36,595 bases of DNA, taken from Bacteroidota bacterium (lineage in GTDB: Bacteria; Bacteroidota; Bacteroidia; Bacteroidales; UBA7960). Shown piece after piece: positions 2,206 through 33,489 of this stretch (positions within the stretch are counted from its first letter, which is position 1; each line of letters opens with the position of its first letter). Under the pieces are notes generated by a model. It ran no database searches. It was not told the DNA's origin and worked only from the letters and a program-made list of their open reading frames with translations. Both the position numbers and the translations under genes were made by a program. The stretch is taken from assembly GCA_018335675.1 (NCBI GenBank), contig JAGXRQ010000037.1, positions 1 through 36,595 of the forward strand, read 5' to 3'.

Positions 2206-2234
2206 TCACATTAACCATTGAATATCTGCAACTT

Positions 2235-8944: not shown

Positions 8945-8956
8945 TAGACATGATTT

Positions 8957-10144
8957 TTACAATACTCCACTTTCTTTAAGCTCATTAACTTCATCTTCAG
9001 ATAAGCCAAGAAAATTTGACAGCACTTCGAAATTATGTTCTCCGATTTCAGGAGCTGCATTTCTTGTTGTTCTTTCATCTAATAAGCTCATTTTTATCGG
9101 ATTACCCGCAATTTTTATTGTGCCTGCTTTTTTATCCTCAACCTCAACAATCATATTTCTGGCATTAATCTGAGGTTCGGAAAACAGCTTTTCAATAGTA
9201 TTAATCGGGCCGCAAGGTACGCCGGCATTGTCAATAATTTCAACCCATTCAGCGGCTGTTTTTGTTGCAAAAGTACTGTCAAGTTCTTTAACCAGATTTG
9301 TAAGATTTTGGGTTCGCAAATCATTTGTTATAAAATGATCATTAATTAAAAGATCCTTTCTGTCAATAACTTCACACAACTTTTTCCATAAGGAATCATT
9401 TCCGGCAGCAACAACAAAATAGCTGTCGCTTGCTTTAAATGCCTGAAATGGCGCAATAGTAGGATGTCGGTTTCCCAATGGCTGAGGAGATTTGCCTTCA
9501 ACCTGATAACGAGTTATAGCATTTTCCAAAATAGAAACCTGACAATCAAGCATGGCAACATCAACTTTTTGCCCTAAGCCGGTATTGTTGCGATGCTGCA
9601 AAGCTGCCAGAATTCCGATTGCAGAATATAAAGATGCAGTAATATCTCCCAACGACATTCCCACCCGAGTAGGTGGGGTTTCTGGCCAACCTGTAATGCT
9701 CATTATACCACCCATAGCCTGAGCCAGAATATCGTAAGAAGCTTTTTGAGAACTAGGACCCGAATGGCCGTATCCCGAGGATGCAGCGTAAATTAACTTA
9801 GAATTTAACTGATTAAGAGTTTCATAGCCCAATCCGAGTTTTTCCATAGTTCCGGGTCGGAAATTTTCAATTACGATATCAAAATGTTTAATCAATTCTT
9901 TAAAAATCTCTTTGCCTTTTTCCGTTTTAAGATTAATGGATATGCTTTTTTTCTCCCTGTTAATGCTCAGAAAATAAAGACTTTGGCCATTCTTAAACGG
10001 TCCGAAACATCTGGCATCATCACCTGTCCCTGGTACTTCAACCTTTATCACTTCCGCTCCTAAGTCGCTAAGAATCATGGTACAAAATGGTCCTGCCAAA
10101 ACTCTGGTCAGGTCTAGTATTTTAATTTTTTCAAGAGGTTTCAT
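8957..10144 (-). CDS. CaiB/BaiF family CoA-transferase
   Basis: A 395-residue class III CoA-transferase that moves CoA between carboxylic acids through an aspartyl-CoA intermediate. Family landmarks are LDLTRVLAGPFCTMILSDLG, the VIKVE segment, ENFRPGTMEKLGLGY, and catalytic D167 in GMSLGDITA. Length fits formyl-CoA, succinyl-CoA:mesaconate and carnitine-type members. No dedicated CoA ligase or decarboxylase partner sits beside it, so oxalyl-CoA metabolism is not specifically supported. In this cluster it most simply activates the acid left after nitrogen removal. Upstream 10145-10492 is a 348-bp gap holding a palindromic repeat, so it may have its own promoter; TAAATTTG on the minus strand at 10251-10258 is a weak candidate. 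Confidence 0.9.
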   Translation of the reverse strand: MKPLEKIKILDLTRVLAGPFCTMILSDLGAEVIKVEVPGTGDDARCFGPFKNGQSLYFLSINREKKSISINLKTEKGKEIFKELIKHFDIVIENFRPGTMEKLGLGYETLNQLNSKLIYAASSGYGHSGPSSQKASYDILAQAMGGIMSITGWPETPPTRVGMSLGDITASLYSAIGILAALQHRNNTGLGQKVDVAMLDCQVSILENAITRYQVEGKSPQPLGNRHPTIAPFQAFKASDSYFVVAAGNDSLWKKLCEVIDRKDLLINDHFITNDLRTQNLTNLVKELDSTFATKTAAEWVEIIDNAGVPCGPINTIEKLFSEPQINARNMIVEVEDKKAGTIKIAGNPIKMSLLDERTTRNAAPEIGEHNFEVLSNFLGLSEDEVNELKESGVL

Positions 10145-10204
10145 CCGTAAATATTTGATTTATACTGTTTAATGCTTTAGGTTTGATATAATAGGTGTTT
10201 CCTT

Positions 10205-10434
10205 ATTTAATGCGCTATGGAAAAAAGTTCCACGCAAAATACGCAAAATTCAAATTTAAAATTTAAAAGTGCGCAAAGATTCAGCTTAAACCTATTTTAT
10301 TAATCTAAACTTTATGTCAAACATCAAAACCCTGCTCTTCCCAATTAAAAACCACAACATTTAATATTTACTTTAACTGCCTTTGCGGTTTTTGTGTATT
10401 TAATTTTGCGGTTTTTGCGAGAAACTTTTAATGC
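10205..10434. repeat. MITE-like palindromic repeat in the 348-bp gap
   Basis: Inverted arms at 10224-10250 and 10402-10428 match at 23 of 27 positions around two CGCAAAA motifs. TTTAATGC occurs just outside both arms (10206-10213 and 10427-10434), though it also occurs at 10168, so target duplication is only suggestive. No coding potential is seen. The layout resembles the repeats around the two GxxExxY genes, but with a different motif and no gene inside. The rest of 10145-10492 is AT-rich and featureless. Confidence 0.6.
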
Positions 10435-10492
10435 TCATTTTGTTATGTTTAACATGATATGAATAACAGTTTCCAACATTTCTGTTTCCTGT

Positions 10493-12838: not shown

Positions 12839-12841
12839 GAT

Positions 12842-13300
12842 TTAATGCTTTTTAGTTACTTCCAAAACAGCGTCAATTACAGGTTTATATCCGGTACAGC
12901 GACACAAATTTCCTGCGATAGACTCCTTAATTTCATGCTCTGATGGATGAGGATTTTTCTTAATCAGTTCAGTAACAGAAAGAATCATTCCGGGTGCGCA
13001 ATACCCACATTGGTATGCATTCCTTTCATTGAGAGCAGTCTGTAATGGGGTTAATCCATCTTTGGATATTCCTTCCAGAGTAAGAATGTCCTGACCATCA
13101 ACTTCGATGGCAAAAATCAGACAGCTTCTTACCGTTTTACCATTTAAGATGACGGTACATGCTCCGCAATCTCCGCTATCGCAGCCGCATTTCGGACTTT
13201 TTACACCCATTTTATCACGAAGCACTTCAAGTAGTCCTTCATTTGGTGCAACATATATATAACGCAATTCTCCGTTTAGAGTAAATGAAATCTTTTTCAT
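12842..13300 (-). CDS. Molybdenum hydroxylase [2Fe-2S] subunit
   Basis: A 152-residue electron-transfer subunit with both expected clusters. The plant-type ferredoxin site is C40, C45, C48 and C60 (GCDSGDCGACTV), and the C-terminal helical-domain site is C98, C101, C133 and C135 (QCGYCAPGM and NLCRCTGY). Length and motif order are standard for CoxS/XdhC-type small subunits. It carries electrons from the molybdenum centre to FAD. Gaps are 4 bp to the FAD subunit gene upstream and 3 bp to the large subunit downstream. Confidence 0.95.
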   Translation of the reverse strand: MKKISFTLNGELRYIYVAPNEGLLEVLRDKMGVKSPKCGCDSGDCGACTVILNGKTVRSCLIFAIEVDGQDILTLEGISKDGLTPLQTALNERNAYQCGYCAPGMILSVTELIKKNPHPSEHEIKESIAGNLCRCTGYKPVIDAVLEVTKKH

Positions 13301-13304
13301 ATCA

Positions 13305-14186
13305 TTACTTTTTAGTAATTAGTTTTGGCTTTTTTAATCTTTCAACTGCTGTGTTAATAGCTCTTTCAAACATCACCTTTGTCATGTGCATTCTATACTC
13401 TTTAGTTGCTCTGACATCCGTTATAGGAGCTATAATCTTACTAATCATCTCTTTAGCATCAGCAATAGATTGAGAATTAATGCCTTTTTCCTTAATAAAT
13501 GCTTCCAGCTTTGGTGAGCGTTTTGGAATTGGTCCCACAGAACCAAAGGCCACATTACACTTTCCGTCAGAAAACAGCAACACTCCAACATTTGCCTGCG
13601 ACAAATCTTCGCCTGAGTACCGCATCATTTTTTGATATGCACCGGCATATTTCAGTTTTGGGATTGGAATAGAAACGTGAGTAACCAATTCCTTTTCTCC
13701 GATTGCAGTTTTTCTGTTATCAACAAACCATTTTTGCACAGTCACATCACGCTGACCGTCAACGCTTAAGCAGTGAATAGTTGCGTCATGAACCAACAAT
13801 GGAGCTGCACTATCCATACATGCAACTGCCGAGCAGATATTTCCAACCATTGTAGCACGATTTCTAACACCATTGGAGGCAACCAAACCGGCAGCTTCAT
13901 ACAAGATGTATGCATTATCCTGAACAGCTTTGGATTCAAGGATTTCATTAAAAGTAACCAGAGCACCAATGTGCAATCTATCATCAATAATTTCAATCTT
14001 TCTTAAAGAATCAATGCCTTTAATGTCGATTAAAACTTCAGGAACTCTAAATCCTTGTTTTACTTCATTAGCCAGGTCGGTACCTCCGGCTAATACTCTG
14101 GCATTTTTACCATGCTTGCCAAGCAGTTGAATTGCCTCTTCAAGAGTCAAAGGCTTTTCATAGCCAAATTCATAGGGGATAGCCAT
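13305..14186 (-). CDS. Molybdenum hydroxylase FAD-binding subunit
   Basis: A 293-residue CoxM-type flavoprotein that passes electrons from the iron-sulfur centres to the final acceptor. FAD-binding segments are visible as VLAGGTDLANEVKQG near residue 31 and RNRATMVGNICSAV near 105. The C-terminal CO-dehydrogenase-flavoprotein domain has the usual length. No extra iron-sulfur cluster insertion is obvious, unlike the 4-hydroxybenzoyl-CoA reductase FAD subunit. It starts 27 bp after the cyclase gene. The acceptor could be NAD or a ferredoxin/flavodoxin. Confidence 0.92.
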   Translation of the reverse strand: MAIPYEFGYEKPLTLEEAIQLLGKHGKNARVLAGGTDLANEVKQGFRVPEVLIDIKGIDSLRKIEIIDDRLHIGALVTFNEILESKAVQDNAYILYEAAGLVASNGVRNRATMVGNICSAVACMDSAAPLLVHDATIHCLSVDGQRDVTVQKWFVDNRKTAIGEKELVTHVSIPIPKLKYAGAYQKMMRYSGEDLSQANVGVLLFSDGKCNVAFGSVGPIPKRSPKLEAFIKEKGINSQSIADAKEMISKIIAPITDVRATKEYRMHMTKVMFERAINTAVERLKKPKLITKK

Positions 14187-14213
14187 AAAAAAATATTTTA
14201 AGTGATAGCCAAA

Positions 14214-15026
14214 TTAAGCGTCAATTGCAATTACTCTGCACATTGCTGATTCCATTTCAATTCCTTTTATAGGGAACAAACCAATCCAAACGCGCTTGTT
14301 GTTTACTTTATTAATGTCGCCACCAATATTTTCTGCATGAACCAATCCTTTTGGGAATAGTTTAAGATGCATAACCTGATAATATTCTTCAGGAGGAAAC
14401 AATTCGTCCCATTTTTTGCCATATTTTGCAACAATTTTGGCTTCTGCCTCCTTGAATCTTTTTGGATGCCAGTCGCGAATAATTGTATTCATAGGATGAT
14501 CAGCACTACCGCAGTCAACTCCAATCCATTTTATTTCCATATCAAGTGCCCACTTATGAAATTCGGGGCTTGGTCCGGGGTGATTTACAAAATATCTTAC
14601 TTCATCGCTTTCCGGCTGATCCCACGCATACCTATGATAACCGGTATTGATAATAAGGATATCGCCTTTTTTAACTTCAACTTTTTTCATAATCATCTCA
14701 GGAGAGTAAAGGCTATAATCTTCAACCTCATCAGAAATATCAACAACAACTCCCGGTCCATACCAAAAATCCAGTGGTGTATTTCCAATAGAGCGACCGC
14801 TGGAGTGGAAATGGATTTCGCCATCTATGTGAGTTCCAACATGATGGCTTGTAGTCATAATCTGACCGTTAGCTCCTTGTCCCATATGAGCGCCGGCAAT
14901 ACGCTTGAAATATTGTAATTGCAAAGGCATATAACTAGGCCATGGTGGAGTATGAATGCTTAAAGGTTGAGTTAAATCATAAATTTTTGCTTCACTCATC
15001 ATTTTAAAAAGATCTTCTTTTGTCAT
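14214..15026 (-). CDS. Cyclase-family metal-dependent hydrolase (KynB/isatin hydrolase type)
   Basis: A 270-residue member of the family named for polyketide cyclases, whose characterised members include kynurenine formamidase and isatin hydrolase. The metal-binding signature HxGTHxD is present (H62, H66, D68), followed by H72/H74. These enzymes use Mn or Zn to hydrolyse an amide, formamide or lactam. Located between allG and the molybdenum hydroxylase, it is the best candidate for opening a hydroxylated heterocycle. There are no tryptophan-degradation neighbours, so kynurenine formamidase itself is unlikely. The upstream gap to allG is 38 bp, consistent with one transcript. Confidence 0.85.
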   Translation of the reverse strand: MTKEDLFKMMSEAKIYDLTQPLSIHTPPWPSYMPLQLQYFKRIAGAHMGQGANGQIMTTSHHVGTHIDGEIHFHSSGRSIGNTPLDFWYGPGVVVDISDEVEDYSLYSPEMIMKKVEVKKGDILIINTGYHRYAWDQPESDEVRYFVNHPGPSPEFHKWALDMEIKWIGVDCGSADHPMNTIIRDWHPKRFKEAEAKIVAKYGKKWDELFPPEEYYQVMHLKLFPKGLVHAENIGGDINKVNNKRVWIGLFPIKGIEMESAMCRVIAIDA

Positions 15027-15064
15027 AACGATAATGTTTTAGTTTATAGAATTGATATATGTTT

Positions 15065-16468
15065 TTAAATAATTTCTTTACCTAATCCTTCAAAGGCTTT
15101 TCTAAACGGCTCCATTGGCGCGCTTAAAACGCCTGCTCCAACTTGTCCAACGCCGGGATTTTTATGTGCAACACCGGTGTCAATAAATGGAGTAATGTTT
15201 TTTTCAATAACTTTTCTAACGTCAATTCCTGTGGGTGTGCCTCTGAAATTGAGGTAAGGAATCTGATAAACATTGTTTTCACCTGCTGTAATTTCGTACA
15301 TATCCAAAGTATATTGCACGGCATCATTAGCGGTGCCACCAACAAACTGGACAATAGCCGGTGCAGAGGCAATTGCAAATCCGCCCAGTCCTAATGTTTC
15401 AGTAATTGAGCTATCACCAATATCAGGATTTGCATCATCTTTTGTATATCCCGGAAAAAACAGTGCATCAGGCAAAAGAGCTTTGTCAACGAACCATTTG
15501 TTTCCTGTTCCGGCTAGCTGTACTCCGAAATCAGTTCCATTCCTTGCCATAACAATTGCAATGCTGCTAAAAGGTATATTTCGGGCAGCATCTAAACAAC
15601 ATTTTGCAGCCGGCATAGATAAATTAAGGAAAAAATGATCGTTGCCATTAATGAAATTCAATACACTGATAGCATCCTCTTTTTTGTTTGCAGTTTCGAC
15701 AATCGCCGGAGCCAAAGCCCTGTATAGCAGAGAATTGCCTGCTCTGTTGCGATTATGTACTTCATCTCCCATGTGAAGTGCCTGAGCGATAAGGTTTTTA
15801 AGATCGATTTTTCCAAGTTTTTCTACCGCAGATTTGAGGATGGGATACATTACTTTTTCCATCCATTTAAGTCTTTCAATAACATCAGCACTAAAAGCAC
15901 CATAACGTAAAACTTTTCCAAGGCCTTCGTTTTGTGTGCAAAAAGCCAGATTGCCGTTGGTTTCATTTTTTACTATAAATACCGGCATGGAGGCAGAAAT
16001 AATTCCTGCCATTGGTCCAACAGAAGAATGCTCATGGCAAGGGGCGTATTCAATTTTCCCTGACGCGGCAAGCTTTTCAGATTCTTCCGGTGTATTTGCC
16101 AGTCCTTCATAAATCAGAGCACCGATGATTGCTCCTCTGGTAGGGCCGCACATTCTGTCCCATGTAATTGGCGGTCCTGAATGTAAGATAAGATTCTTTT
16201 TCATGCCCGGAATTACGTTTATGGCAATTTCTAATCCTATAAGAGCGGGTTTGCCGTTTAAGATAATTTCCAGCGCTTTTTTGTTTGCTTCATCAATTTT
16301 TTGTTTGTTGGCGGCAATAGCTGAAGCAGATTTGGAATTAACATCAACGGGGGGCTTCCATTTTACCTGAACGGCCTCAGCTCCAACCTGATCAAGATTA
16401 TCTTTGAATGAGGATAATCCGGTGTTGATTACTCTTAGTTTTTTATTTAAAAGGGTGTTTATAGACAT
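15065..16468 (-). CDS. allG: AllG-like protein (DUF1116, YlbE family)
   Basis: A 467-residue DUF1116 protein. In Escherichia coli the relative YlbE/AllG is reported to act with FdrA and AllH as an oxamate carbamoyltransferase in allantoin breakdown, producing carbamoyl phosphate. Family landmarks include HSGPPITWDRMCGP followed by GAIIGALIYEG, a CHEHSSVGPMAG segment, HMGDEVHNRN, and a glycine-rich stretch near ETLGLGGFAIA. All three partners are in this window, supporting the assignment, but no carbamate kinase is. It is separated from fdrA by about 1 kb holding a GxxExxY gene and its repeats. The true carbamoyl donor may differ from oxalurate. Confidence 0.85.
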   Translation of the reverse strand: MSINTLLNKKLRVINTGLSSFKDNLDQVGAEAVQVKWKPPVDVNSKSASAIAANKQKIDEANKKALEIILNGKPALIGLEIAINVIPGMKKNLILHSGPPITWDRMCGPTRGAIIGALIYEGLANTPEESEKLAASGKIEYAPCHEHSSVGPMAGIISASMPVFIVKNETNGNLAFCTQNEGLGKVLRYGAFSADVIERLKWMEKVMYPILKSAVEKLGKIDLKNLIAQALHMGDEVHNRNRAGNSLLYRALAPAIVETANKKEDAISVLNFINGNDHFFLNLSMPAAKCCLDAARNIPFSSIAIVMARNGTDFGVQLAGTGNKWFVDKALLPDALFFPGYTKDDANPDIGDSSITETLGLGGFAIASAPAIVQFVGGTANDAVQYTLDMYEITAGENNVYQIPYLNFRGTPTGIDVRKVIEKNITPFIDTGVAHKNPGVGQVGAGVLSAPMEPFRKAFEGLGKEII

Positions 16469-16510
16469 AATGTATTTTTATAGAATGAATCTTTTAAGAA
16501 CTTTTTTTGG

Positions 16511-16850
16511 TTACACAGTGTTTCGCAATGTTTTCACAGTGTTACACAGTGTAAAAATGTATAAATCTACACTGTGATACTCTGTGATTACACTGTGCGA
16601 CTCTGTATAATTTTTATTTTTATTTATAAAAGAACTTTTTTGGTTACACAGTGTTTCACAATGTTTTCACAGTGTTTCACAGTGTAAAAAAGCACTATCC
16701 ACTCTGTGAAACTCTGTGCCTACTCTGTGTAACTCTGTGTAATTTTTGTTTTTATTTATAAAAGACCTTTTTTTTGTTACACAGTGTAAAAATGCACAAA
16801 TCTAAACTGTGATAATCTGTGCTTACACTGTGCGACACTGTGTAATTTTT
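16511..16850. repeat. 133-bp-period dyad repeats, downstream block of GxxExxY cassette
   Basis: Copies starting with TTACACAGTG lie at 16511, 16644 and 16777, exactly 133 bp apart. Each unit begins TTACACAG and ends CTGTGTAA (or a close variant), with many internal CACAGTGT and ACTCTGTG words, so each can fold into a long hairpin. The third copy is a shortened form missing part of its first half. The block ends at the GxxExxY stop codon. It fills most of the 384-bp gap between allG and that gene. Confidence 0.85.
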
Positions 16851-16852
16851 TT

Positions 16853-17224
16853 TTATAAAATGAACCTTTTTATTCCGTCTCTGAGGCTTTTTACATTGAA
16901 ATTAAATAGTAGCCCGATTTTTTTGTCACTAAATTTTAAATATGTTAATACTTGAGCAAAATGGACGTCACAAAAGGAATCAACAGTTTTTAGTTCAACA
17001 ATTACCTTATCTTCTACGAGTAAATCTATTCTATAACCACAGTTTAAACTGACTTCTTCATAAACGACCGGAACTGGTTTTTCTTCTTCTACTTTGAGGC
17101 CTTTCTTTTTCAATTCATAAGATAGGCAGGCCTTGTATGCAGATTCTAGTAGTCCCGGGCCGAGTGCTGTATGAACTTTATAGGCTGAATCAATGATTTC
17201 TTTTGTTATATCATTAATATCCAT
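16853..17224 (-). CDS. GxxExxY protein (PDDEXK-like nuclease fold)
   Basis: A 123-residue protein of the GxxExxY family. The signature GPGLLESAYKACLSYEL sits near residues 22-38, and a PDDEXK-like core follows: YRIDLLVEDKVIVELKTVD with Asp and the E-L-K pair, then VHFAQVLTYLKF. The family has no established function; the fold suggests nucleic-acid cleavage. It has an ATG start, unlike its relative at 600. It interrupts the fdrA-allG spacing and is flanked on both sides by 133-bp-period repeats, so it looks like an insertion into a pre-existing operon and not a working part of the pathway. Confidence 0.88.
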   Translation of the reverse strand: MDINDITKEIIDSAYKVHTALGPGLLESAYKACLSYELKKKGLKVEEEKPVPVVYEEVSLNCGYRIDLLVEDKVIVELKTVDSFCDVHFAQVLTYLKFSDKKIGLLFNFNVKSLRDGIKRFIL

Positions 17225-17257
17225 GTTTTCTGTTTTTTGTTTTATTGTTTTTTTTTG

Positions 17258-17460
17258 TTACACAGTGTTGCACAATGGTTTCACAGTGTTACGCAGTGTA
17301 AAAATGCACATATCTACTCTGTGAAACTCTGTGCCTACTCTGTGTAACTCTGTGAAATTTTTATTTTTATTTATGATAGAACTTTTTTAGTTACACAGTG
17401 TAAAAATGCACAAATCCACACTGTGAAACTCTGTGCTTACACTGTGCGACTCTGTGTAAT
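17258..17460. repeat. 133-bp-period dyad repeats, upstream block of GxxExxY cassette
   Basis: TTACACAGTG occurs at 17258 and 17391, again 133 bp apart, with the same internal words as the block at 16511. The first unit is full length and the second is the shortened form, mirroring the downstream block (full, full, short). The GxxExxY gene lies between the two blocks. Confidence 0.85.
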
Positions 17461-17495
17461 TTTTTTAATAATTATAAAAGAACTTTAAAAAACAC

Positions 17496-19037
17496 TTATT
17501 TATTTACAATTTTACTCACCAGCTTTGCTGCGGCTACATTAGACGGCATTACTATTACGCCTGCACTTTCGAGTTGTTTAATTACTTCTTTCCTGTTTTG
17601 AGGATCTCCGTCGGTGCCGGTTACCGAACAAATAAATAACAAGTTCGGAGCCGTTTTTGTTGCATTTTTAATAACAGGCACAAGTTCCGCCGCCGGCGAA
17701 ATATGAGAACCGTATCCCAAAACAACATCAAACAGAATTATAGCAACCTCATTATCAGCAGCTTCCTCAGCAATCCTTTTATTTCTAAGAGAAAAATCAA
17801 TCATAGGGTGAGGCCTGCCGGAAGTAAACTCATCATCACCCAAATCAAGAATTGTGTGCTCCTTACTTTTCCACAGATTATCCAGTTTAAAATCCTCATT
17901 CAGAGGAGTATTGCTGTACACAAACCCGATAGTATCCTTAAGTATTAGCTGAGCTTCATCGCATAAGGTTCCACCGCTGAATAATCCGCGTACATATTTT
18001 CCCCTAATCTTTTTTGAGAGCTTTTCCGCAAGATTCGCAGTCTCTTTTTCCCTATTATCAAGCATTTCCTTCGCATGATCTATGTTTTTACCTTTAGAAA
18101 TGCTTACAGCGATTAATGCAGCTTCTTCAAGATTTGCGGCCGGGATTGCTCCTGCTTTAGCTATCACATCTGGATTTCCACCAATAAAAATACCCACAAC
18201 AGGCTTTTTTATGTTTTTTATCTCAGCAGCAATTTTATCAAGAACCTCAGGATGAGGCGGTTTGCTTATCAAAACAATGCAATTTGTCTCTTCATCATTG
18301 TTAAGAGCCCTTAGTGCTTCTATAAACATTATACCACCAATTTCTTTCTTCACATCCCTGCCACCTGTACCAATGGCCTGAGAAATTCCTGCTCCATTGT
18401 TTGAAATGATAGAACTAACTTCCTGTAAACCTGTTCCCGATGCTGCAACAATACCGATGTCGCCTTTATTTACAACATTTGCAAAAGCTAGCGGAACACC
18501 ATTAATGATGGCAGTTCCACAATCCGGACCCATCAGTAAAAGCCCTTTTTCTTTGGCGATTTTTTTCAAATCCAGCTCATCTTCAATACTCACATTATCA
18601 GAAAAAATCATCACATGAAGGTTTTTATCAAGAGCCTTTTTTGCTTCTTTTGCAGCGTATTTTCCGGCAATAGAAATCAGACAAAGGTTAGCTTCCGGAA
18701 GTTGCTCAACAGCTTGGTCAAGACTGTGCAATACAGAGGCAGTGTTATTCTCCTGTTTTTTAAGAAGTTCTTTAAGAATGTCAGAAACTTTGCTAATTGC
18801 CTCATCTGCAACAGTTTCGGTATTTGCTTTTATGCTGATTAAAAGATCAGTATCATTAAGCGCCTCAAATTCAGGGATTAACAAACCTGCTGAATTCAGT
18901 ATTGCTTTATTCTCATTTGTACCCATAACCACGGAAGAGTCGATTACGCCCTCAATTTCATTGAGTTTTTTAGATACAATCATCAGGGTAACTGAGTCGT
19001 AATAAGCTCCTTTTTTGGCAATTCCTTTTATAATCAT
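17496..19037 (-). CDS. fdrA: FdrA-like protein (oxamate carbamoyltransferase-like subunit)
   Basis: A 513-residue protein with the succinyl-CoA-synthetase-like architecture of FdrA. The N-terminal part carries a nucleotide-binding-like region, and a middle segment has MGPDCGTAIINGVPLAFAN and ASGTGLQEVSSIISNNGAG followed by GTGGRDVKKEIGG. The C-terminal ligase-like domain has LFSGGTLCDEAQ and DLGDDEFTSGRPHPMID. In E. coli FdrA, with AllG and AllH, is linked to phosphorolysis of oxalurate to oxamate and carbamoyl phosphate. The gene overlaps allH by 4 bp (ATGA), so they are translationally coupled. Because the fold also handles acyl-CoA and acyl-phosphate chemistry, another carbamoyl or acyl substrate is possible. 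Confidence 0.9.
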   Translation of the reverse strand: MIIKGIAKKGAYYDSVTLMIVSKKLNEIEGVIDSSVVMGTNENKAILNSAGLLIPEFEALNDTDLLISIKANTETVADEAISKVSDILKELLKKQENNTASVLHSLDQAVEQLPEANLCLISIAGKYAAKEAKKALDKNLHVMIFSDNVSIEDELDLKKIAKEKGLLLMGPDCGTAIINGVPLAFANVVNKGDIGIVAASGTGLQEVSSIISNNGAGISQAIGTGGRDVKKEIGGIMFIEALRALNNDEETNCIVLISKPPHPEVLDKIAAEIKNIKKPVVGIFIGGNPDVIAKAGAIPAANLEEAALIAVSISKGKNIDHAKEMLDNREKETANLAEKLSKKIRGKYVRGLFSGGTLCDEAQLILKDTIGFVYSNTPLNEDFKLDNLWKSKEHTILDLGDDEFTSGRPHPMIDFSLRNKRIAEEAADNEVAIILFDVVLGYGSHISPAAELVPVIKNATKTAPNLLFICSVTGTDGDPQNRKEVIKQLESAGVIVMPSNVAAAKLVSKIVNK

Positions 19038-19852
19038 ATTCCAATTTTGTTTTGAACAGAAAAAATGTATCCGGATAGCAAATCGGCTCCGGAAGTTGCA
19101 CCCATTGAAAAAAGTTCATTCAAATTATCAGAGACTAATTTCGATTGGGATGCTAAATATACGAAATTTTTGAGCAAATAAAAACAGTTTCCGTTTTTCG
19201 CATTAAGCAAAAATGAGTTAGAAAGAGGGTTTTTTCCAATAGAAGCATTGTAGATTTTGTTTCTTAAATTGGCTAAAGGTTTTTGGTGTTTGAATTCGTT
19301 AAAGTGCAAGCCATAAAGCATACCTGCAATAAAATCATCTCCTGATGGTGTAAGACCTTTGCCGGTTCCCTTGAGCATTTTAACACCCTCCACAATTTCT
19401 CCAAATTTAATTATTTCAGATGCGTTCAATGAGTTCTTCATAAAATGCGAATCAAATCCGCTTTTAAAAAAGCTTTGTTTTTCAGCAAGCAAAACAAACA
19501 ACATACTTTCCGGAGCAAACAATTCATTGTATTCATTAGGAATAATTTGAAGATTAATTTCAAGCGTCAGAATATCAAGTGCGGAATAATCCACCTTGGA
19601 ATCGTAAAATTCTGTTTGAGGAAGAATGTTTACATCATTAAGAAATACAGAATTTTCGGAAATCAGGACATTGGTATATTGTGCAATATTCTCATTATCA
19701 ATATAAATAGAATTGGCAGAGATGTTTTTTTTAAGATTTGTGATAAAGATAAGTTCACTATTTGCATTAATAAAATTGCAAACGTTTTTGAATGTAGAAT
19801 GAATAATAAATGCGCCTTGAGGCAATAAATCGCCAAGAATGATTTTTTCCAT
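19034..19852 (-). CDS. allH: AllH-like protein (DUF2877, YlbF family)
   Basis: A 272-residue DUF2877 protein, the third member of the FdrA-AllG-AllH set. The family signature KGLTPSGDDFIAGMLYG is present near residue 163, and the C-terminal GATSGADLLSGY segment is typical. I chose the ATG at 19850-19852; a TTG three codons upstream also opens the frame but would lie inside a promoter-like box at 19859-19866. It is the first gene of the catabolic cluster, 101 bp after oadB, and overlaps fdrA by 4 bp. The molecular role of this subunit within the carbamoyltransferase is not clear from sequence. Confidence 0.85.
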   Translation of the reverse strand: MEKIILGDLLPQGAFIIHSTFKNVCNFINANSELIFITNLKKNISANSIYIDNENIAQYTNVLISENSVFLNDVNILPQTEFYDSKVDYSALDILTLEINLQIIPNEYNELFAPESMLFVLLAEKQSFFKSGFDSHFMKNSLNASEIIKFGEIVEGVKMLKGTGKGLTPSGDDFIAGMLYGLHFNEFKHQKPLANLRNKIYNASIGKNPLSNSFLLNAKNGNCFYLLKNFVYLASQSKLVSDNLNELFSMGATSGADLLSGYIFSVQNKIGI

Positions 19853-19858
19853 AAAACA

Positions 19859-19886
19859 CAAATGTAGTGATTATTGGAAATACAAA
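19859..19886 (-). promoter_or_regulatory. Possible promoter for allH-fdrA, near-leaderless
   Basis: TACATTTG on the minus strand (19859-19866) fits the Bacteroidota -7 consensus TAnnTTTG. TTTG at 19883-19886 lies 16 bases upstream and could be a -33 element, though the spacing is short. Transcription would begin almost at the ATG at 19852. Confidence 0.33.
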
Positions 19887-25256: not shown

Positions 25257-27794
25257 TTAAAACACTTTCACTGTGCCTGTGTGACCGTCAATTTCAATAA
25301 TGCTGTTGTTTTTAATGATGGTTGTTGCTTTGTTAACACCAAGCACAGCCGGTATGCCGTATTCACGTGATACGACAGCTCCATGCGATAGCATTCCGCC
25401 TGTTTCTGTCACTAAACCGCCAATTCTTGCAAAATAAGGAGTCCATGCAGGATCTGTAAACTTTGTTACCAGTATTTCGCCTTCTGCAAGGTTGTTTGCC
25501 TCGAAAATTGTGTTTATAACTTTTGCCTTGCCTTTGTATATTCCCGGAGATCCGCTTATGCCTGTAAGTTCATCTTTTGAGGATGCTTTAAAAATCTTTC
25601 TGGTTTTTTTGCCACTCTTCTTCCAGATTTCGTTAGGCTTGTTAAAATTGGCAAAGCTTTTATGAAATTGTTTGTTTTTTTCTATTAGGATTTGGTAATG
25701 TTTTGAATCTGGACCACTTGCAAGTTTGAAAACCTCATCGAACTTTAAAAAGAAAATATCATCTCTACTAGAGATTAAACCCTGTTCAAGCATTTTATCT
25801 GCAAGCTTGATAAGACAAAAACGTATGTAGTAATACATTTTTGTTGAATAATCTCGCATTTCTTCTCTCCACCACAGTAGATGTCTGTGAATCTTCAGGT
25901 TTTTCTGTAAAGATTTGCTTTTTACCCTGGCTTTCTCATTCAAATATACCTCAAACTGCTTTTGATTAGACAATCTGAGATCTTCTGTCTCTGGTGTTTT
26001 AACAAAGTCTATCAAAATATTAAAAGCTTGCATAGGGTCTTCGTCCCAATTAGGAACATTAATTTCAAGCTCCCTAATACTATGAAATCTGTGCTTGTTG
26101 ATAAGTGATTTCAACTCGTTTGAAAAAGGGAAGATCTCACCTGATTTGAAATAGTCAAATAGTTTTTCGGTCGAAATATTCGAGTAAAAATCGCAGGCAT
26201 TTCTATCTCCTATAATACTTCTGCTTAGCTCCCAAAGGTCAATTGTTGGTTTCAGATGAGCGAGATTTTTAAGTCCGCATATAAGTTTTATGTACTCAAT
26301 TTTGTTATCCTTGTTTTTCTTGTTGTATTTGTCAACTGCTTCCTGGCAAAATGTTGCTGCATTGGAATTGTCATAAATTGTGAAGAAATATCCACCCTCA
26401 AGCATTAAGTAATGTTTTTCAATTAGGGTTTTTGCAAAATCAGCTAAATCTTCTAATTGAAGTTGATTAAAATCCAGTGAATCAATTTTGGAGAAAACTT
26501 CCTTTGCATTCTCAATTGCTTGCTTGCATTTCTTTGATCTTCTTGCAATTGAAAGTTTTGTTGAAATTAAAATTCTAATTCCGTTTAAAATGCTTACGGG
26601 GGTAACTTTTGTGACATGCCCGTTTCCGTCATAATCAGGCTCAATTCCTAAGCTTAAGTCGAAGTTTCTTTCAATAAACCCAGGAATTTTTTTAACGCAT
26701 TCCTTTGCTGCCTGCATATTCCAATATGAATATCCAAACCACCAGTTGAACCATTTTATATTTTTTCTTCGGCTTGGTGCTCCTATAGTTTTAAAGTATT
26801 CAGGCATAGTATTTTCAAAAATGTATTCATACAATGAATACATCAATGGCGTGGCTATGGAAGAAGAGATTCCACCATCTTTGAGGTCGGCATTTGTCCA
26901 TTCAAAATCAACGTCAAAATGAATAGATGTGAGGGGTCTTGCCTGAACTATAAAAAAAGTTCCATTATTATATGCCCATTCAATATCAAGTGGTTCGCCA
27001 TAATACTGTTGTATGTCTAAACAAACGGATGATAATGTCCTGATTTGATCATCTTCAATCAGTTTTGAATCTGTATTTACAACCGCAGAGGCATTGTTTA
27101 TTTTCCTAATTTCATAAGTGTACCAATTATATGCGTAGCTCTCAGGGTTTACAATTCCTTGAACAAGATTTTCACCTAAACCTGCAACAACTTCAACAAC
27201 CATTTCCTTGTCGTTTCCTGTAAGTGGGTTGGCTGTGAAAACAACTCCCGATTTTTCTGAATCTATTTGCCCTTGAATTACAACATTCATTTCTATGTCT
27301 TTGGACAAAATTTGATTGTTATTGCAGTAAGCCAAAACTTTGTCGCTAAATTGAGACGACCAGCATTTTAAAACTGCTTTGCTCAGCTCAACGGGGTTGT
27401 CGATGTTGAGATAAGATTCAAACTGCCCTGCAAATGAATATGTAATGCCATCTTCTATACTGCCTGAACTTCTAACAGCTACTTTATTGAATCCCTTTTT
27501 CTTAACTTCCTCAAAAAACGCAACTATTTCATTTTCAATGTGCTTTGGAATGTCAGCTTTTTCAATAGCCTCTATAATTTTATTAATTTGCTCACTGTTT
27601 TGATAATCAGACAGATTATTTATTTTTTCTTTTAATTCAGTATTTGAATTTAAAAAGTCTTTGTAAGCAGAATAATTTATTATCCCTCCGAAAGGAACAT
27701 TAAATCCTGCTTTGTAAAGCTGAGCTAAGCGAAAAGCTTTTCCTCCTGTTCCTGTCGGAAAATTATTGTCTTCGAAGGTTATTGTATATTTCAT
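25257..27794 (-). CDS. PEP-synthase/rifampin-phosphotransferase-like dikinase A
   Basis: An 845-residue enzyme with the three-part order of rifampin phosphotransferase. The N-terminal ATP-grasp domain (about 1-300) has GTGGKAFRLAQL, AVRSSGSIEDG, SFAGQFESYLNI, SGVVFTANP and DIEWAYNNGTFFIVQARP. A helical middle region of about 430 residues (300-740) has no recognisable motif. The C-terminal swivelling domain carries the phosphohistidine H804 in GGMLSHGAVVSREYGIPAV. The PEP/pyruvate-binding barrel of true PEP synthase is absent, so it probably transfers the ATP beta-phosphate to another acceptor. It is the last gene of a four-gene operon, 66 bp after the CarS-like gene. Confidence 0.87.
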   Translation of the reverse strand: MKYTITFEDNNFPTGTGGKAFRLAQLYKAGFNVPFGGIINYSAYKDFLNSNTELKEKINNLSDYQNSEQINKIIEAIEKADIPKHIENEIVAFFEEVKKKGFNKVAVRSSGSIEDGITYSFAGQFESYLNIDNPVELSKAVLKCWSSQFSDKVLAYCNNNQILSKDIEMNVVIQGQIDSEKSGVVFTANPLTGNDKEMVVEVVAGLGENLVQGIVNPESYAYNWYTYEIRKINNASAVVNTDSKLIEDDQIRTLSSVCLDIQQYYGEPLDIEWAYNNGTFFIVQARPLTSIHFDVDFEWTNADLKDGGISSSIATPLMYSLYEYIFENTMPEYFKTIGAPSRRKNIKWFNWWFGYSYWNMQAAKECVKKIPGFIERNFDLSLGIEPDYDGNGHVTKVTPVSILNGIRILISTKLSIARRSKKCKQAIENAKEVFSKIDSLDFNQLQLEDLADFAKTLIEKHYLMLEGGYFFTIYDNSNAATFCQEAVDKYNKKNKDNKIEYIKLICGLKNLAHLKPTIDLWELSRSIIGDRNACDFYSNISTEKLFDYFKSGEIFPFSNELKSLINKHRFHSIRELEINVPNWDEDPMQAFNILIDFVKTPETEDLRLSNQKQFEVYLNEKARVKSKSLQKNLKIHRHLLWWREEMRDYSTKMYYYIRFCLIKLADKMLEQGLISSRDDIFFLKFDEVFKLASGPDSKHYQILIEKNKQFHKSFANFNKPNEIWKKSGKKTRKIFKASSKDELTGISGSPGIYKGKAKVINTIFEANNLAEGEILVTKFTDPAWTPYFARIGGLVTETGGMLSHGAVVSREYGIPAVLGVNKATTIIKNNSIIEIDGHTGTVKVF

Positions 27795-27860
27795 CCGTGT
27801 TTGTGTTTAACGAATCATGCTCGTTTCATAGCAATAATTTATATTTTCAAAGTTTGATAT

Positions 27861-28421
27861 TTAAAGTGGATTTTTACGTAATCCTATTGAATAAAGCAAA
27901 ACATTAAAGAACATGTGTAAAGCTAAATAGAAAAAAGTACCTGCAATGAAAAACATTATATTCATATCTGAAAACGCCCAAAGAGCTAGCATACAACCAA
28001 TGGGTGAATCAGCTTGATCAATCATTACGTTGTAGTACTTTCCCGGCTTCCCTTCTTCTATTCCACTTATCCGTTTTGCAAAGCTATTTGGCAATTCTGC
28101 AATTACATAGCCTAATCCGTATGCTATCCCAATAACCAACGGAGAGAATGTCTCAAAATTAATAATATTGAGAGAATATATTGACTCATAATTCTTTGTT
28201 AGCCAGTATAATAAATATGTAGAAGGCACAGAGAGAATAACCATTGCCAGCAACCCTCTGAATGTTTTACTGTTGCCAAAAATTCTTTTGTTGCCAATTT
28301 TTTTATAAAAATCCAGTGGATAATTCAGTATGCTAAACCAATTATACTTAACCACAACCATATGCAAAATGGCGGATATTGTAGGAGGAATTGCAAATAC
28401 AAGGAGTTTTAATATCAGCAT
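27861..28421 (-). CDS. CDP-archaeol-synthase-like (CarS family) membrane protein
   Basis: A 186-residue membrane protein with about five hydrophobic segments. It keeps the CarS family landmarks in order: a KTFRG motif at 52-56 after NKRIFGN, a NSFAKR basic motif at 112-117, and DQADSPIG at 135-142, matching the K-T-x-R-G, KSF.KR and DQxD...G patterns. Archaeal CarS transfers CMP from CTP to an unsaturated ether-lipid phosphate, and bacterial CdsA does the same with phosphatidic acid. Bacterial CarS-like proteins lack proven substrates. Its place between an RND exporter and an ATP-dependent phosphotransferase suggests cytidylyl activation of a lipid or isoprenoid phosphate. Gaps are 24 and 66 bp. 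Confidence 0.82.
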   Translation of the reverse strand: MLILKLLVFAIPPTISAILHMVVVKYNWFSILNYPLDFYKKIGNKRIFGNSKTFRGLLAMVILSVPSTYLLYWLTKNYESIYSLNIINFETFSPLVIGIAYGLGYVIAELPNSFAKRISGIEEGKPGKYYNVMIDQADSPIGCMLALWAFSDMNIMFFIAGTFFYLALHMFFNVLLYSIGLRKNPL

Positions 28422-28445
28422 ATTACAAATTTTTAAACTGTATAA

Positions 28446-30686
28446 TTATTTAAGTTTACCTAATAGCAATGGAAATAACCAAATATTTCCCAGCAAAGAG
28501 CCTGTAACTGCTATTGCGCATAATATTCCAAAGTATGATAATCCGGTAATGCTGCTTGAAGCTATTATAGCAAAACCCGCAAATAAAGCAATAGATGTAG
28601 ATATCATTGCAGATGCAGTACGGTCAAGGCTTATATCTGCCGCAACTTTGGCGGAAGCTCCTTTTTTTCTTTCTTTTTGATATGCATACATAAGGTGTAT
28701 TGAATCGTCGAATGCAACGCCAAGAATTATGCAAGTAATTACAGCAGTACTCTGGTCTACAGCAATCCCAAACATCCACATTACTATAAGAATCAATGCT
28801 ATTGGGAACAAGTTTGGCAAAAGTGAGAGAAGCGCTAGTTTGAAGCTCTTGAAACACAGCACTATAAGCGCAAGAATTAAGAAGAAGGCTATTAAAAATG
28901 TACGAATCTGACCCCAAATAATATGGTTATTCATTTCAACATACATAGGTAGATAACCTCTTGGCGATAAAGTTATACCTTCGGAATTAGTAAATACTTC
29001 ATTAAAAGCAGCAAATATTTTTTCAAGAATAATTTCATAATCGGCTGAGGATGCAATTTTGGTAGTTGCGCTAATTCTAAGCTCGGTAAAGTCTTCATTA
29101 TCATATTTTTGAAATTTATCTGTTCGATTTTGAAGATAAATTTGCAGCAGCCTCTCCGCAACAACCACATTATTCGGAAAATAATGATTATCAGATTTAT
29201 ATAATGCAGAATTTAAATATCCAAGTATATCAGCAGTAGAAAATAGGTTGGCAAAATACCCTGTTTCATTCAGCTTTGTTTTAAAATCTATAACTTTTTG
29301 AATATCGTAAAGATTGAAAGCTGAATCCTTTATAAGCAGAATTTCAACCGGCAAAAAGGGGCCAACATTTTCTTCTATTATAAAATTGTCATTAAGAACT
29401 GTTGAGTTTTTTTCAAGGTAATCGAAGGGATAAGTTTCGGTTCGCATTTTAGTGATTGAAAACAAGGCAATTACAATAGTCAGAGGGAATATTATCATAA
29501 CTAATTTGGGTTGTTTTATATTCACTTTTGAAAAGAATCCTGTAATAAGATTTGTTTTTGACGCTAGTTGAATACTTTGATAATTGAGTTTTTCCTTTTT
29601 TGGCGGAAACAATAAAAAAGCAACGGCAGTAACAACAAATGAGCAAATAAATACTAGTGCAACTCCTATCGCTGCCAAGATTCCTGTTTGTTTTATTACT
29701 TCAATTGAAGAAGCATAAAGGGAGATAAATCCCGCCATAGTTGTTGTAGCCGTAAACAGGCAGGGAACAAATACATATTTTAATGCTTTCTTTAATGATT
29801 CCTCGACAGAAGCGGAGGAAGAGACAAATTCCCGATGGCAAATATTTACTATATGAATTGAAGTTGCTGTGCCGGTTATTAATAGGAGTGTTGGAATTAC
29901 AACAGTAATCATATTAAATGCACCATCAAAATAAGTGAAAGCTGCAAATAGCCATATTACAGGAATCAAAACCGACAACACAGAAATTACAACATATCTC
30001 CATTTTCTAAGAAACACAAAGAGTAGAACTATAACGGCCAATATGCTTAAAATTGAAACTTTCGCACTTTCCTTTGCTGTTGTGTTGTTCAATGCTTCAT
30101 TTATAATAGGGATTCCGCCATAATGGGCCTGATAGAAATACTTATTAACAATTTCCTTGATTTCTGTAACATATTCAGGATTAGATAATTCGCCTTCTAC
30201 TGCTCTAAGCATAGCATAAACCATAAATCCTTTTTCATACTTATCGAAAAACAAGGATTTATAATGGGGGTAGGAGTTAATTCTGTTTTTGAAAATATTA
30301 ATTTGATGCTCTGATTGAGGAACAGAAGGGAGTAATGCAGATATTCTTGGACCAAGGGAAGTTGCTGCAATAAAGGGCGCTGACGCCGGTGAAAAAACAC
30401 TGTGCACAAAATCGAGAGAATCAATTTCGCTGCTCATCAGCATCATTTTTTCCACAACTTTTATATCAAATGCATCAACACTTCTTACATAAATTGCAAC
30501 AATCTCATCATTTGAATATCTTTTTCTGAAATCAGTATAATTTTCAAACACTTCATCATCTTGAACAAACCAAATATCAAGCGAATTATCTATTCTAATT
30601 CCATCTTTAAGAAGATAAAAACTTCCCAAAACAGATAAGATAATTATTATGCCAATTGCTTTATGGTATTTTGTTAATATTTTCAT
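28446..30686 (-). CDS. RND/MMPL-family transporter
   Basis: A 746-residue inner-membrane permease with the two-fold RND plan: a membrane span near residues 11-26, a periplasmic domain, a block of five or six spans, then a second periplasmic domain and span block. The corresponding motifs differ between halves. The second has GVAFDDSIHLMYAYQ, with the acidic pair expected for the proton relay; the first has GTATSIHIVNI with no Asp. This resembles MMPL/HpnN-type lipid exporters more than drug efflux pumps, and no adaptor or TolC-like gene is adjacent. It sits 30 bp after dikinase B and 24 bp before the CarS-like gene, so export of a lipid product is plausible. Confidence 0.9.
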   Translation of the reverse strand: MKILTKYHKAIGIIIILSVLGSFYLLKDGIRIDNSLDIWFVQDDEVFENYTDFRKRYSNDEIVAIYVRSVDAFDIKVVEKMMLMSSEIDSLDFVHSVFSPASAPFIAATSLGPRISALLPSVPQSEHQINIFKNRINSYPHYKSLFFDKYEKGFMVYAMLRAVEGELSNPEYVTEIKEIVNKYFYQAHYGGIPIINEALNNTTAKESAKVSILSILAVIVLLFVFLRKWRYVVISVLSVLIPVIWLFAAFTYFDGAFNMITVVIPTLLLITGTATSIHIVNICHREFVSSSASVEESLKKALKYVFVPCLFTATTTMAGFISLYASSIEVIKQTGILAAIGVALVFICSFVVTAVAFLLFPPKKEKLNYQSIQLASKTNLITGFFSKVNIKQPKLVMIIFPLTIVIALFSITKMRTETYPFDYLEKNSTVLNDNFIIEENVGPFLPVEILLIKDSAFNLYDIQKVIDFKTKLNETGYFANLFSTADILGYLNSALYKSDNHYFPNNVVVAERLLQIYLQNRTDKFQKYDNEDFTELRISATTKIASSADYEIILEKIFAAFNEVFTNSEGITLSPRGYLPMYVEMNNHIIWGQIRTFLIAFFLILALIVLCFKSFKLALLSLLPNLFPIALILIVMWMFGIAVDQSTAVITCIILGVAFDDSIHLMYAYQKERKKGASAKVAADISLDRTASAMISTSIALFAGFAIIASSSITGLSYFGILCAIAVTGSLLGNIWLFPLLLGKLK

Positions 30687-30716
30687 AATCAGTTTGTTGA
30701 CATTGTATTTTCTGCT

Positions 30717-33296
30717 TTATTTTTCAATTCTAATATAACCCGTAGAGCCATCCATAAAAACAACATCGCCAGTATGTATTAAAGTTGTGGCTTTCTCGGC
30801 GCCCACTATTGTAGGAATTCCTAATTCACGACCAACAATTGCCGTATGTGATAATAATGATCCTTTCTCGCTGATTAAACCTGCAGCTTTCGACATTAGA
30901 AAAATCCAACCAGGGTCAGTTATTTTAGTAACCAAAATTGAATCGTGCACATTAAGGGTTAAGTCAGGTTCATCAACAACTATAGCTTTTGCAAGCACAG
31001 TTCCCTTGCTTACGGCTATGCCTTTAAGTTCATTTTCTAGTGTAGAATCAATAACGATTTCTTCGTTATATGGAGGATGTTCCGCTTGATAAATGATTCT
31101 ATCCGGCAAAGTAATCTTCTCATATATATCGTATTCTTTCTTGCGATTATCAATTAATGATTCGAGATTTGAAGTGTCATTGTGTAGGCAGAAGTTTTTA
31201 ACGTGCTCAATATCAAGATAATAAATGTCGACTTTTTGTAAAATCACACCAGCTTTTTGCATTTCAACGCCTATGTATGCATACAATTCTTTCACCGATC
31301 CGTATGCTCGTGTGCGACAAAACCTCATGTTTTCTCTGTTTCTTATAGTGTTTCGAGCTAATTTAAGAATGTAATTATAATATAGCTTTTGCAAAGAATA
31401 TCGATTAAGCTTTTTATTTGTAAGCATTTCTGCCCTCTGTCTAATTTTTTGCTGATTCTGTTTTATCTCTTCTTTAGAAATTCTTGAATTTAAATGGCTC
31501 TTTATCAATTCAATAACCTTTTCAGGATTATTTCTGAATGATGCTGTTTCTAATTTAAGTTCTGATGTGGTTCTGTCACCATATTGCTCTGAATATTTAT
31601 AAATATCTTCAAGAAGATTATTATCAGCGTTGGTTTTTAGTTTTGAATAAATTGATAATGAATCATTTGTGTTGAATACTTCCGATAAATGAGAATTATT
31701 CTTCACCTTATCAACCATTTCAAGCAAAGTGAGTAGGGGTTTTTCAGACTCTACATCGGAAATACCGCAAAGAAGGTCGTTTGCTATATTCTCATCATCT
31801 TCGAATCCTAGTGATTTAATAATTTTTTTTAGCTTGCCATAACTTCTGAAAGCAATTAGATCGTTTATTAATGTTGGATACCAATTATCAAACAAGGAAG
31901 CTGAGACATCTTCAATAAACGTAAAAACCTCTTTTGGCTTTTTTTCTCTATAATTATATGACGATAATTTGTTGTAATCTTTTGAAAATGAGTAGAAAAA
32001 CTTCTTACTCCATTTGTTATGGTATAATACAAGTTTTGCTAACCTGATTTTTGATTTTACTTTTTGAATGCTAGAAACTTTAATTGGTTGAAAGCTTCCC
32101 TGCTTAAGTCCAAGGCTGGTTTCCCAATTTTGCATACTTTTTTTCCCGGGAATAACCAAAGAAAGAGTTTTATACCAATTGTCTAAGCGGTAATATACTC
32201 TGCCGGCAACGCCAGCTATAAGGTTAGAAAGCACATCTTCCATATTTGGAAAATTGTTGATGTTTACACCAACAGCATTCACGGTTCCTTTAAAAACGTG
32301 ATAGTAATTATTTTTTGCAAAACTTATACTAAGAGGAAGTGTTATGCCCGGATACGATTCGGAAATATTTGTATTGTCGAGTATCTTTAAATTATCCTGA
32401 TATATAGTTGTAATCGGACGAGCTTGTAGAAAATAGACTTGGCCTTCAGCATCAATAGAAAATTCTATATCTAGGGGTTTATGAAAGCTTTTTTCTGCAT
32501 TAAGTGCTCTTTCGGAAAGAAATACTATTTGCTCTCTCGATAAGCATGGTTTATTGGCTTTTTCTATTTCAATTGAAGCTTCACTTAAATTATTTATAAC
32601 TTTAGGGTTGTAAATAAAAGCAGTGTTTTTGATAGCTATTTTCTGATAAATATTTGAACTTTGCCTGTCGAAATAAAATAAATCAGCATTTACCTTACCT
32701 CCTACAATGCCTTCTCCGGCTCCGTATGCTGCGGAAATTATAAGATTATTCAGGTTGCCGCCTGTATCCATAGTAAAAACAACTCCAGAAACAGTGGCGT
32801 TTATCATTTTCTGAATAATAACCGACATTTTTTGGGGAATAATCTTACCATAAGTAAGAAACATATACATTAGAGCATTTGGATTCCATTGAGAGGCAAA
32901 GCATTTTTTTATTCTATCTTCAAGCGCATCAGGAGAAACATACAAAAATGATGAATACTGTCCTGCAAAAGAATACTCAGCAGAATCTTCTGCTTTTGCT
33001 GATGAGCGAACAGCCATAAGGCTACTTGAAAACGTTGAAATGCATTTGGTTTTTATTTCATCAATTACGTCTTCTGGAATTTTAATACTCTCAATGTGTT
33101 TCTGAGCTTTAGTGTAAAACTCATTTAAAACCCTGGCATCTGAAGATAAAGAAACCGATGATTTTTCAAATTCATCGGTTTGAAATATTTTATTAAGAAA
33201 ATCGTGCGAAAGCACAAAAAATTCAGGAACGTTATAATTTAGTTCCTTTAGAAAATATAAACCGGAAGATTTTCCTCCTGAGTGATTTTTTCCCAT
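30717..33296 (-). CDS. PEP-synthase/rifampin-phosphotransferase-like dikinase B
   Basis: An 859-residue paralogue of dikinase A with the same domain order. ATP-grasp motifs are GGKSSGLYFLKEL at the N-terminus, AVRSSAKAEDS, SFAGQYSSFLYV, SGVVFTMDT and DIEFSIDAEGQVYFLQARP. A helical middle of about 440 residues is highly diverged from A. The swivelling domain carries H817 in GSLLSHTAIVGRELGIPT. The PEP-binding barrel is again missing. The N-terminus starts right at the GGK loop, slightly shorter than A. It is the first gene of the four-gene operon. Two paralogues with different middle domains suggest two acceptors or two successive phosphorylations. True PEP synthase and pyruvate phosphate dikinase are excluded by architecture. 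Confidence 0.87.
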   Translation of the reverse strand: MGKNHSGGKSSGLYFLKELNYNVPEFFVLSHDFLNKIFQTDEFEKSSVSLSSDARVLNEFYTKAQKHIESIKIPEDVIDEIKTKCISTFSSSLMAVRSSAKAEDSAEYSFAGQYSSFLYVSPDALEDRIKKCFASQWNPNALMYMFLTYGKIIPQKMSVIIQKMINATVSGVVFTMDTGGNLNNLIISAAYGAGEGIVGGKVNADLFYFDRQSSNIYQKIAIKNTAFIYNPKVINNLSEASIEIEKANKPCLSREQIVFLSERALNAEKSFHKPLDIEFSIDAEGQVYFLQARPITTIYQDNLKILDNTNISESYPGITLPLSISFAKNNYYHVFKGTVNAVGVNINNFPNMEDVLSNLIAGVAGRVYYRLDNWYKTLSLVIPGKKSMQNWETSLGLKQGSFQPIKVSSIQKVKSKIRLAKLVLYHNKWSKKFFYSFSKDYNKLSSYNYREKKPKEVFTFIEDVSASLFDNWYPTLINDLIAFRSYGKLKKIIKSLGFEDDENIANDLLCGISDVESEKPLLTLLEMVDKVKNNSHLSEVFNTNDSLSIYSKLKTNADNNLLEDIYKYSEQYGDRTTSELKLETASFRNNPEKVIELIKSHLNSRISKEEIKQNQQKIRQRAEMLTNKKLNRYSLQKLYYNYILKLARNTIRNRENMRFCRTRAYGSVKELYAYIGVEMQKAGVILQKVDIYYLDIEHVKNFCLHNDTSNLESLIDNRKKEYDIYEKITLPDRIIYQAEHPPYNEEIVIDSTLENELKGIAVSKGTVLAKAIVVDEPDLTLNVHDSILVTKITDPGWIFLMSKAAGLISEKGSLLSHTAIVGRELGIPTIVGAEKATTLIHTGDVVFMDGSTGYIRIEK

Positions 33297-33390: not shown

Positions 33391-33469
33391 CAAAAAAAGA
33401 GACTGCGATAAAGCGAATCTATTTAATTTCAGCATATTTAGAAATTATCAGCGCTTTAAAGCAGTCTCT
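33391..33469 (-). terminator. Factor-independent terminator of the M16 peptidase gene
   Basis: AGAGACTGC at 33398-33406 pairs perfectly with 33461-33469, then TAAAGCG at 33409-33415 pairs with 33452-33458 across a 2x2 internal loop. The loop is 36 nt. Read on the minus strand the stem is followed by seven T residues (33392-33398). It lies about 20 bp past the peptidase stop and separates that gene from the dikinase operon. Confidence 0.82.
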
Positions 33470-33489
33470 CCGGGTGAATTTATTATTTA

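Follow-up and report, generated by a model that had tools for sequence, protein, structure and literature searches.

RPH-type dikinases and a CarS-like gene in a Bacteroidota bacterium: candidate parts of a second phospholipid pathway

Why would a Bacteroidota bacterium keep two phosphohistidine dikinases, a relative of the archaeal lipid enzyme CarS and an MMPL-type permease in one compact group of genes? The window, by which we mean the whole stretch of 36,595 nucleotides that was analysed (contig JAGXRQ010000037.1), carries these four genes on its minus strand. An earlier note on this DNA had read them as a route by which an alcohol is phosphorylated and cytidylylated and the product is moved to the cell surface.

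The four-gene unit and its enzymes

The features of the unit and its border are:

25257..27794, minus strand: D1, RPH-type dikinase and proposed lipid-alcohol kinase (845 aa; Pfam, RPH alignment, catalytic residues, distribution)
27861..28421, minus strand: CarS-like putative CTP:lipid-phosphate cytidylyltransferase (186 aa; Pfam, ApCarS 5guf profile match, alignment)
28446..30686, minus strand: MMPL/HAE3-type RND permease (746 aa; PF03176 7.9e-15; TIGR00921 171 bits)
30717..33296, minus strand: D2, with which the unit opens; RPH-type dikinase with ATP-grasp, acceptor and C-terminal phosphohistidine domain (859 aa; Pfam, NF004881 604 bits, RPH alignment)
33396..33472, minus strand: strong hairpin of the terminator type with a run of T, between the M16 peptidase gene and D2 (sequence and fold: -31 kcal/mol, z -6.1)

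The gene order is D2, MMPL, CarS-like, D1 with gaps of 30, 24 and 66 bp, and the four co-oriented open reading frames with gaps of 24-66 bp lie where the earlier note had placed them. The M16 peptidase gene is found upstream of D2, with 193 bp between the two and the hairpin within this interval, while downstream of the unit a Usp gene is convergent. Because of this hairpin on the one side and the convergent gene on the other, the four genes look like a separate transcription unit. A search against Rfam gave no matches and a promoter scan stayed at chance level (50 vs. 50.8). Elsewhere in the window, inspection by eye revealed putative NAD-dependent formate dehydrogenase subunits adjoining a MobA-like gene (1735-6190), followed by amidase, CoA-transferase, molybdenum hydroxylase (three subunits), cyclase and FdrA/DUF1116-like genes (7649-19861), the latter group possibly serving the breakdown of a purine or related heterocycle.

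Above the Pfam cut-offs the two dikinases showed only two domains, PPDK_N (2e-62 and 4e-62) together with the PEP-utilizers mobile domain (5e-24 and 1e-24), and the PEP-binding barrel (PF02896), by which a PEP synthase or PPDK would be recognised, was absent from both in the Pfam search. This agrees with the earlier description of two ATP-grasp/phosphohistidine enzymes lacking that barrel. The likeness in domain order to rifampin phosphotransferase (RPH) was confirmed as well: the solved structures closest to both proteins are RPHs, and the RPH layout of three domains is present in D1 and D2 according to Pfam, NCBIfam and the RPH alignments. Mutagenesis of RPH-Lm demonstrated that Lys22, Arg117, Arg666-Glu667 of the acceptor domain and His825 matter (PMC4844700), and the equivalents of all these residues are retained in D1, in D2 and in 23 of the 23 dikinases compared. 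Since the catalytic residues are retained, a phosphotransfer of the RPH kind is supported, in which phosphate passes from ATP via a His to a hydroxyl group on a separate acceptor. With NCBIfam equivalog scores of 328 (D1) and 273 bits (D2) against a cut-off of 999, the two are predicted to work like RPH, yet are not members of that family. The NCBIfam models for PigC and RedH (prodigiosin ligase) score the dikinases about as high as the RPH model does; RPH-like folds carry out ligations as well, and such chemistry may be possible for D1 and D2. AlphaFold models from two-row alignments (pLDDT 44 for D1, 38 for D2) were of too low a quality to be used in fold searches. In a phylogenetic analysis, D1 and D2 form distinct clades (SH-aLRT 100 and 99) and the carriers are grouped alike in both, the window with the Bacteroidales genome G763 and the Fluviicola-type genomes together.

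The CarS-like protein matches PF01864 (1.7e-11, 44.9 bits vs. a cut-off of 22), and a profile search found the solved ApCarS structure 5guf (E 4.9e-6). The KTFRG and DQADS motifs named in the earlier note are indeed present, in columns that are strongly conserved across ten relatives; the motifs of the protein are FGxxKTxRG, ELPNSxxKR and DQxDS. Against the NCBIfam equivalog for CDP-2,3-bis-geranylgeranylglycerol synthase the protein reached 63.3 bits, the cut-off being 148. On these matches and motifs the protein is a member of the CarS family, but the archaeal function is not assignable to it from the score. True relatives are found in 7 of 393 Bacteroidales and, among 199 relatives of a Fluviicola MAG, in 8 genomes, while none was found in 58 near relatives, same genus included. 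Weak PF01864 matches in many Bacteroidota, like the weakest hits of the search in the 393 Bacteroidales, were mostly frames of 270-330 aa that fit CdsA, and these were set aside. One CarS relative stands in a row with a patatin-like gene (by eye) and a CDP-alcohol phosphatidyltransferase, without dikinases (L004:159-2250).

Related loci in other genomes

CarS, D1 and D2 occur together in seven genomes, the window's and six others (three Bacteroidales, three Fluviicola-type). The earlier note had tied its pathway to a recurrence of all four genes; CarS, D1 and D2 do recur together, whereas the MMPL gene does not. Since the set is conserved in distant genomes, the grouping of CarS, D1 and D2 is not a matter of chance. 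In all six other genomes the cluster also includes genes for a prenyltransferase of the UbiA family and for a CDP-alcohol phosphatidyltransferase. The Bacteroidales genome G712 comprises a single co-directional, mostly overlapping operon, PSD-CarS-PssA-D1-GNAT-UbiA-D2, in which PssA (108.6 bits, cut-off 107) and PSD (162.2 bits, cut-off 111.75) both exceed curated cut-offs. G763 and G696, likewise Bacteroidales, carry ICMT, CarS, D1, D2, UbiA and the phosphatidyltransferase. The Fluviicola-type loci (L003, L039, L040) combine a CDP-alcohol phosphatidyltransferase, an ICMT-family methyltransferase, an aminotransferase-reductase fusion, CarS, D1, D2 and UbiA; the fusion joins a class III aminotransferase to an acyl-reductase-like region, its best NCBIfam match being PigE of prodigiosin synthesis (L003:3484-6345). 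A literature search found no published description of this cluster.

In the window's own genome, contig C22 holds a GNAT-like gene, UbiA (NF010118, 227 bits) and a PS decarboxylase (318 bits) side by side, and contig C80 encodes a PssA-like CDP-alcohol phosphatidyltransferase, the sole enzyme of this type that was found in the genome. The GNAT label stands for a weak NCBIfam match and weak matches to solved acetyltransferases. Because UbiA, PSD and the GNAT-like gene sit on C22, the pathway appears to be split over two loci in this genome, a draft with 2.69% contamination in which the two halves lie on different contigs.

The UbiA-like gene follows CarS: it is present in 11 of 15 CarS-bearing against 2 of 46 CarS-less genomes (Fisher P 2e-7) and, within Bacteroidales, in 4 of 7 compared with 0 of 36 (P 3e-4), P-values that are optimistic because the fifteen CarS-bearing genomes are related rather than independent and some had been used to build the UbiA profile. 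The gene is present in each of the seven genomes that carry both CarS and D1. Motif 1 (D-x3-D) is retained, with the equivalents of D66-x3-D70 invariant, and the profile matches the solved DGGGP synthase 6m31 (2e-7). Motif 3, the second Asp motif required by DGGGP synthase, is lost, with RK(I/L/V)K or R in its place; owing to this loss, prenyl transfer itself is uncertain.

D2 and UbiA are adjacent, often overlapping, in 18 loci, and one cluster holds both in L105; a single UbiA locus without an adjacent D2 was seen (L077). The same pair, accompanied by the GNAT-like gene, is at the heart of another type of cluster, which lacks CarS and D1. Many such loci encode a homologue of class I HMG-CoA reductase, a DUF3419 protein (BtaA-type), a membrane protein of 224 aa, a GNAT-like protein and an AMP-ligase. 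The HMGR-like protein retains the catalytic Glu, Lys, Asp and His, with GDASGQNM for GDAMGMNM and GDKKSNYQ for TDKKPAAIN; as these substrate-side motifs differ, it may reduce another acyl-CoA. This arrangement of HMGR-like, UbiA-like, D2 and DUF3419 genes with those for the 224-aa membrane protein, the GNAT-like protein and the AMP-ligase is conserved in Bacteroidota (L079:7021-18660, L080:4115-13668, L081, L082, L076, L126, L128-L131). D1 occurs beside CarS only and is absent from the CarS-less D2 clusters; among 296 Bacteroidota no other close relative of it was detected, while D2 has relatives in 8 further genomes of the same set. Thus D1 and D2 are not interchangeable, and it is D2 that accompanies UbiA, CarS-less clusters included. 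Related loci lacking D1 have other kinases, namely DAGK/YegS in L078 and an APH-HMGR fusion beside CarS in L045. Fusions of this kind adjoining CarS were observed at L045:7368-9722, L107:10189-12537 and L108:4124-6172, the APH domain being identified by Pfam in the first and by similarity in the other two.

The proposed pathway and its alternatives

We consider it probable that the window holds half of the genes, from a locus that has been split, for a second phospholipid pathway independent of CdsA. The UbiA-family enzyme, D2 and the GNAT-like protein would build a lipid alcohol, to which D1 would pass a phosphate from ATP via its phosphohistidine, giving lipid-phosphate, AMP and Pi. The CarS-like enzyme would then use CTP to form a CDP-lipid, a CDP-alcohol phosphatidyltransferase (PssA-type in the G712 operon, PssA-like in the window's genome) would attach the head group, and the PS decarboxylase beside UbiA would yield an ethanolamine lipid. 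The joint conservation of CarS, D1 and D2, the G712 operon, the UbiA counts and the other kinases of related loci speak for this pathway; the lost Asp motif of UbiA, the ligations by RPH-like folds, the position of the two halves on different contigs of a draft genome and the relatedness of the CarS-bearing genomes speak against it. For CarS, PssA and PSD the chemistry is that of their families, whereas gene content, motifs, residues, linkage and co-occurrence were observed directly. The phosphotransfer chemistry of D1 is supported by its conserved residues, and phosphorylation of a lipid alcohol followed by cytidylylation is well supported as a pair of predicted steps by the retained RPH residues and CarS motifs and by the restriction of D1 to CarS loci; this part of the earlier reading stands. 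From there we infer the substrate of D1, the identity of the lipid, the step of D2, the feeding of CarS by D1 and the branch point. At that point the alcohol made by D2, UbiA and the GNAT-like protein might either be decorated without phosphate (BtaA type) or be phosphorylated by D1 and handed to CarS. More tentatively, and with a little less than an even chance of being right, Bacteroidota might possess an undescribed membrane-lipid pathway in which a UbiA-family enzyme and an RPH-type dikinase supply an alcohol to two branches, one leading through D1, CarS, PssA and PSD to a phospholipid, the other, with the HMGR-like and DUF3419/BtaA proteins, to a lipid of the homoserine/betaine type that is free of phosphorus. 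In that case phosphohistidine dikinases would act as lipid kinases.

The most serious rival is an archaeal-type isoprenoid ether phospholipid, an option already raised by the earlier note. PcrB would make geranylgeranylglyceryl phosphate, UbiA would add the second chain, CarS, PssA and PSD would lead to archaetidyl-ethanolamine, and the dikinases would salvage the alcohol. That note had stated that no prenyl-glycerol synthase is present in this DNA, but PcrB (GGGP-synthase family) and UbiA-family genes are located on other contigs of the window's genome, and PcrB is present in 7 of 7 genomes with CarS and D1. Furthermore, GGGP synthase activity is known for the PcrB of Bacteroidetes, and an archaeal-type lipid pathway, though without CarS, is carried by FCB bacteria (PMC7852524); the UbiA match to 6m31 points the same way. 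However, PcrB is common in controls as well (most of the 46 CarS-less genomes), several genomes that have the UbiA-D2 core lack it (e.g., G601, G328, G336, G265, G316), and UbiA carries RKxK for its second Asp motif. For these reasons we regard the ether lipid as possible but unlikely and do not favour it; moreover, DGGGP is already a phosphate, so a kinase would be unnecessary.

The two dikinases beside a UbiA-family enzyme might instead suggest salvage of polyprenol or phytol, with D1 and D2 phosphorylating a prenol twice, UbiA taking the prenyl diphosphate and the CarS-like protein acting as a CTP-dependent kinase like dolichol kinase. The membrane protein of 224 aa in the CarS-less clusters resembles dolichol/phytol kinases by eye, but profile searches gave no confirmation of this. 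The complete operon places CarS with PssA and PSD, and the profile search finds CarS 5guf and no kinase; this reading is therefore very improbable. Even less credit is given to a ligation, in a secondary metabolite or aminolipid, of an amine or aldehyde to a partner in the manner of PigC/TamQ. While the PigC and RedH scores and the PigE-like fusion of the Fluviicola cluster would fit, this fusion is missing from the other D1/CarS loci, and the constant partners are phospholipid head-group genes. Least probable of all is export of an activated lipid by the MMPL protein as the main purpose. The permease recognised by the earlier note does lie inside the unit, separated by 24-30 bp, and its PF03176 match bears out the assignment. 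Export is not supported, however, because the other CarS and D2 loci examined contain no MMPL homologue, and the proposed transfer to the cell surface thus has no comparative backing. The gene appears to be a local addition outside the conserved CarS/D1/D2 set with an unproven role in the pathway, where it may move the lipid. What is found in the relatives instead are a phosphatidyltransferase and a PS-decarboxylase step, which point to a membrane phospholipid and not to export.

Comparison with known systems

Judging by the literature searched, neither lipid kinases of the phosphohistidine type nor a bacterial CarS-dependent phospholipid route have been described before, so that both would be novel, and the proposed pathway would bear on the question of the lipid divide, CarS having been the gene missing in FCB bacteria.

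With the archaeal CarS pathway (DGGGP synthase, CarS, archaetidylserine synthase, archaetidylserine decarboxylase) the Bacteroidota set has the UbiA, CarS, CDP-alcohol phosphatidyltransferase and PSD-type families in common, yet its UbiA lacks the second Asp motif and two dikinases and a GNAT-like protein are added. RPHs (e.g., 5hv2/5fbs) resemble D1 and D2 in the three-domain layout and the catalytic Lys, Arg, Arg-Glu and His, whereas D1 and D2 score far under the RPH equivalog cut-offs and are surrounded by lipid genes. The archaeal-like lipid genes of Ca. Cloacimonetes (PMC7852524) likewise place PcrB and UbiA in FCB bacteria, but without CarS; the Bacteroidota set, by contrast, includes CarS, is not linked to PcrB and has the dikinases at its centre. 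Finally, the bacterial CdsA-PssA-Psd route has its head-group steps in the same order as the proposed pathway, in which, in contrast, CarS would replace CdsA and a dedicated kinase would feed CarS.
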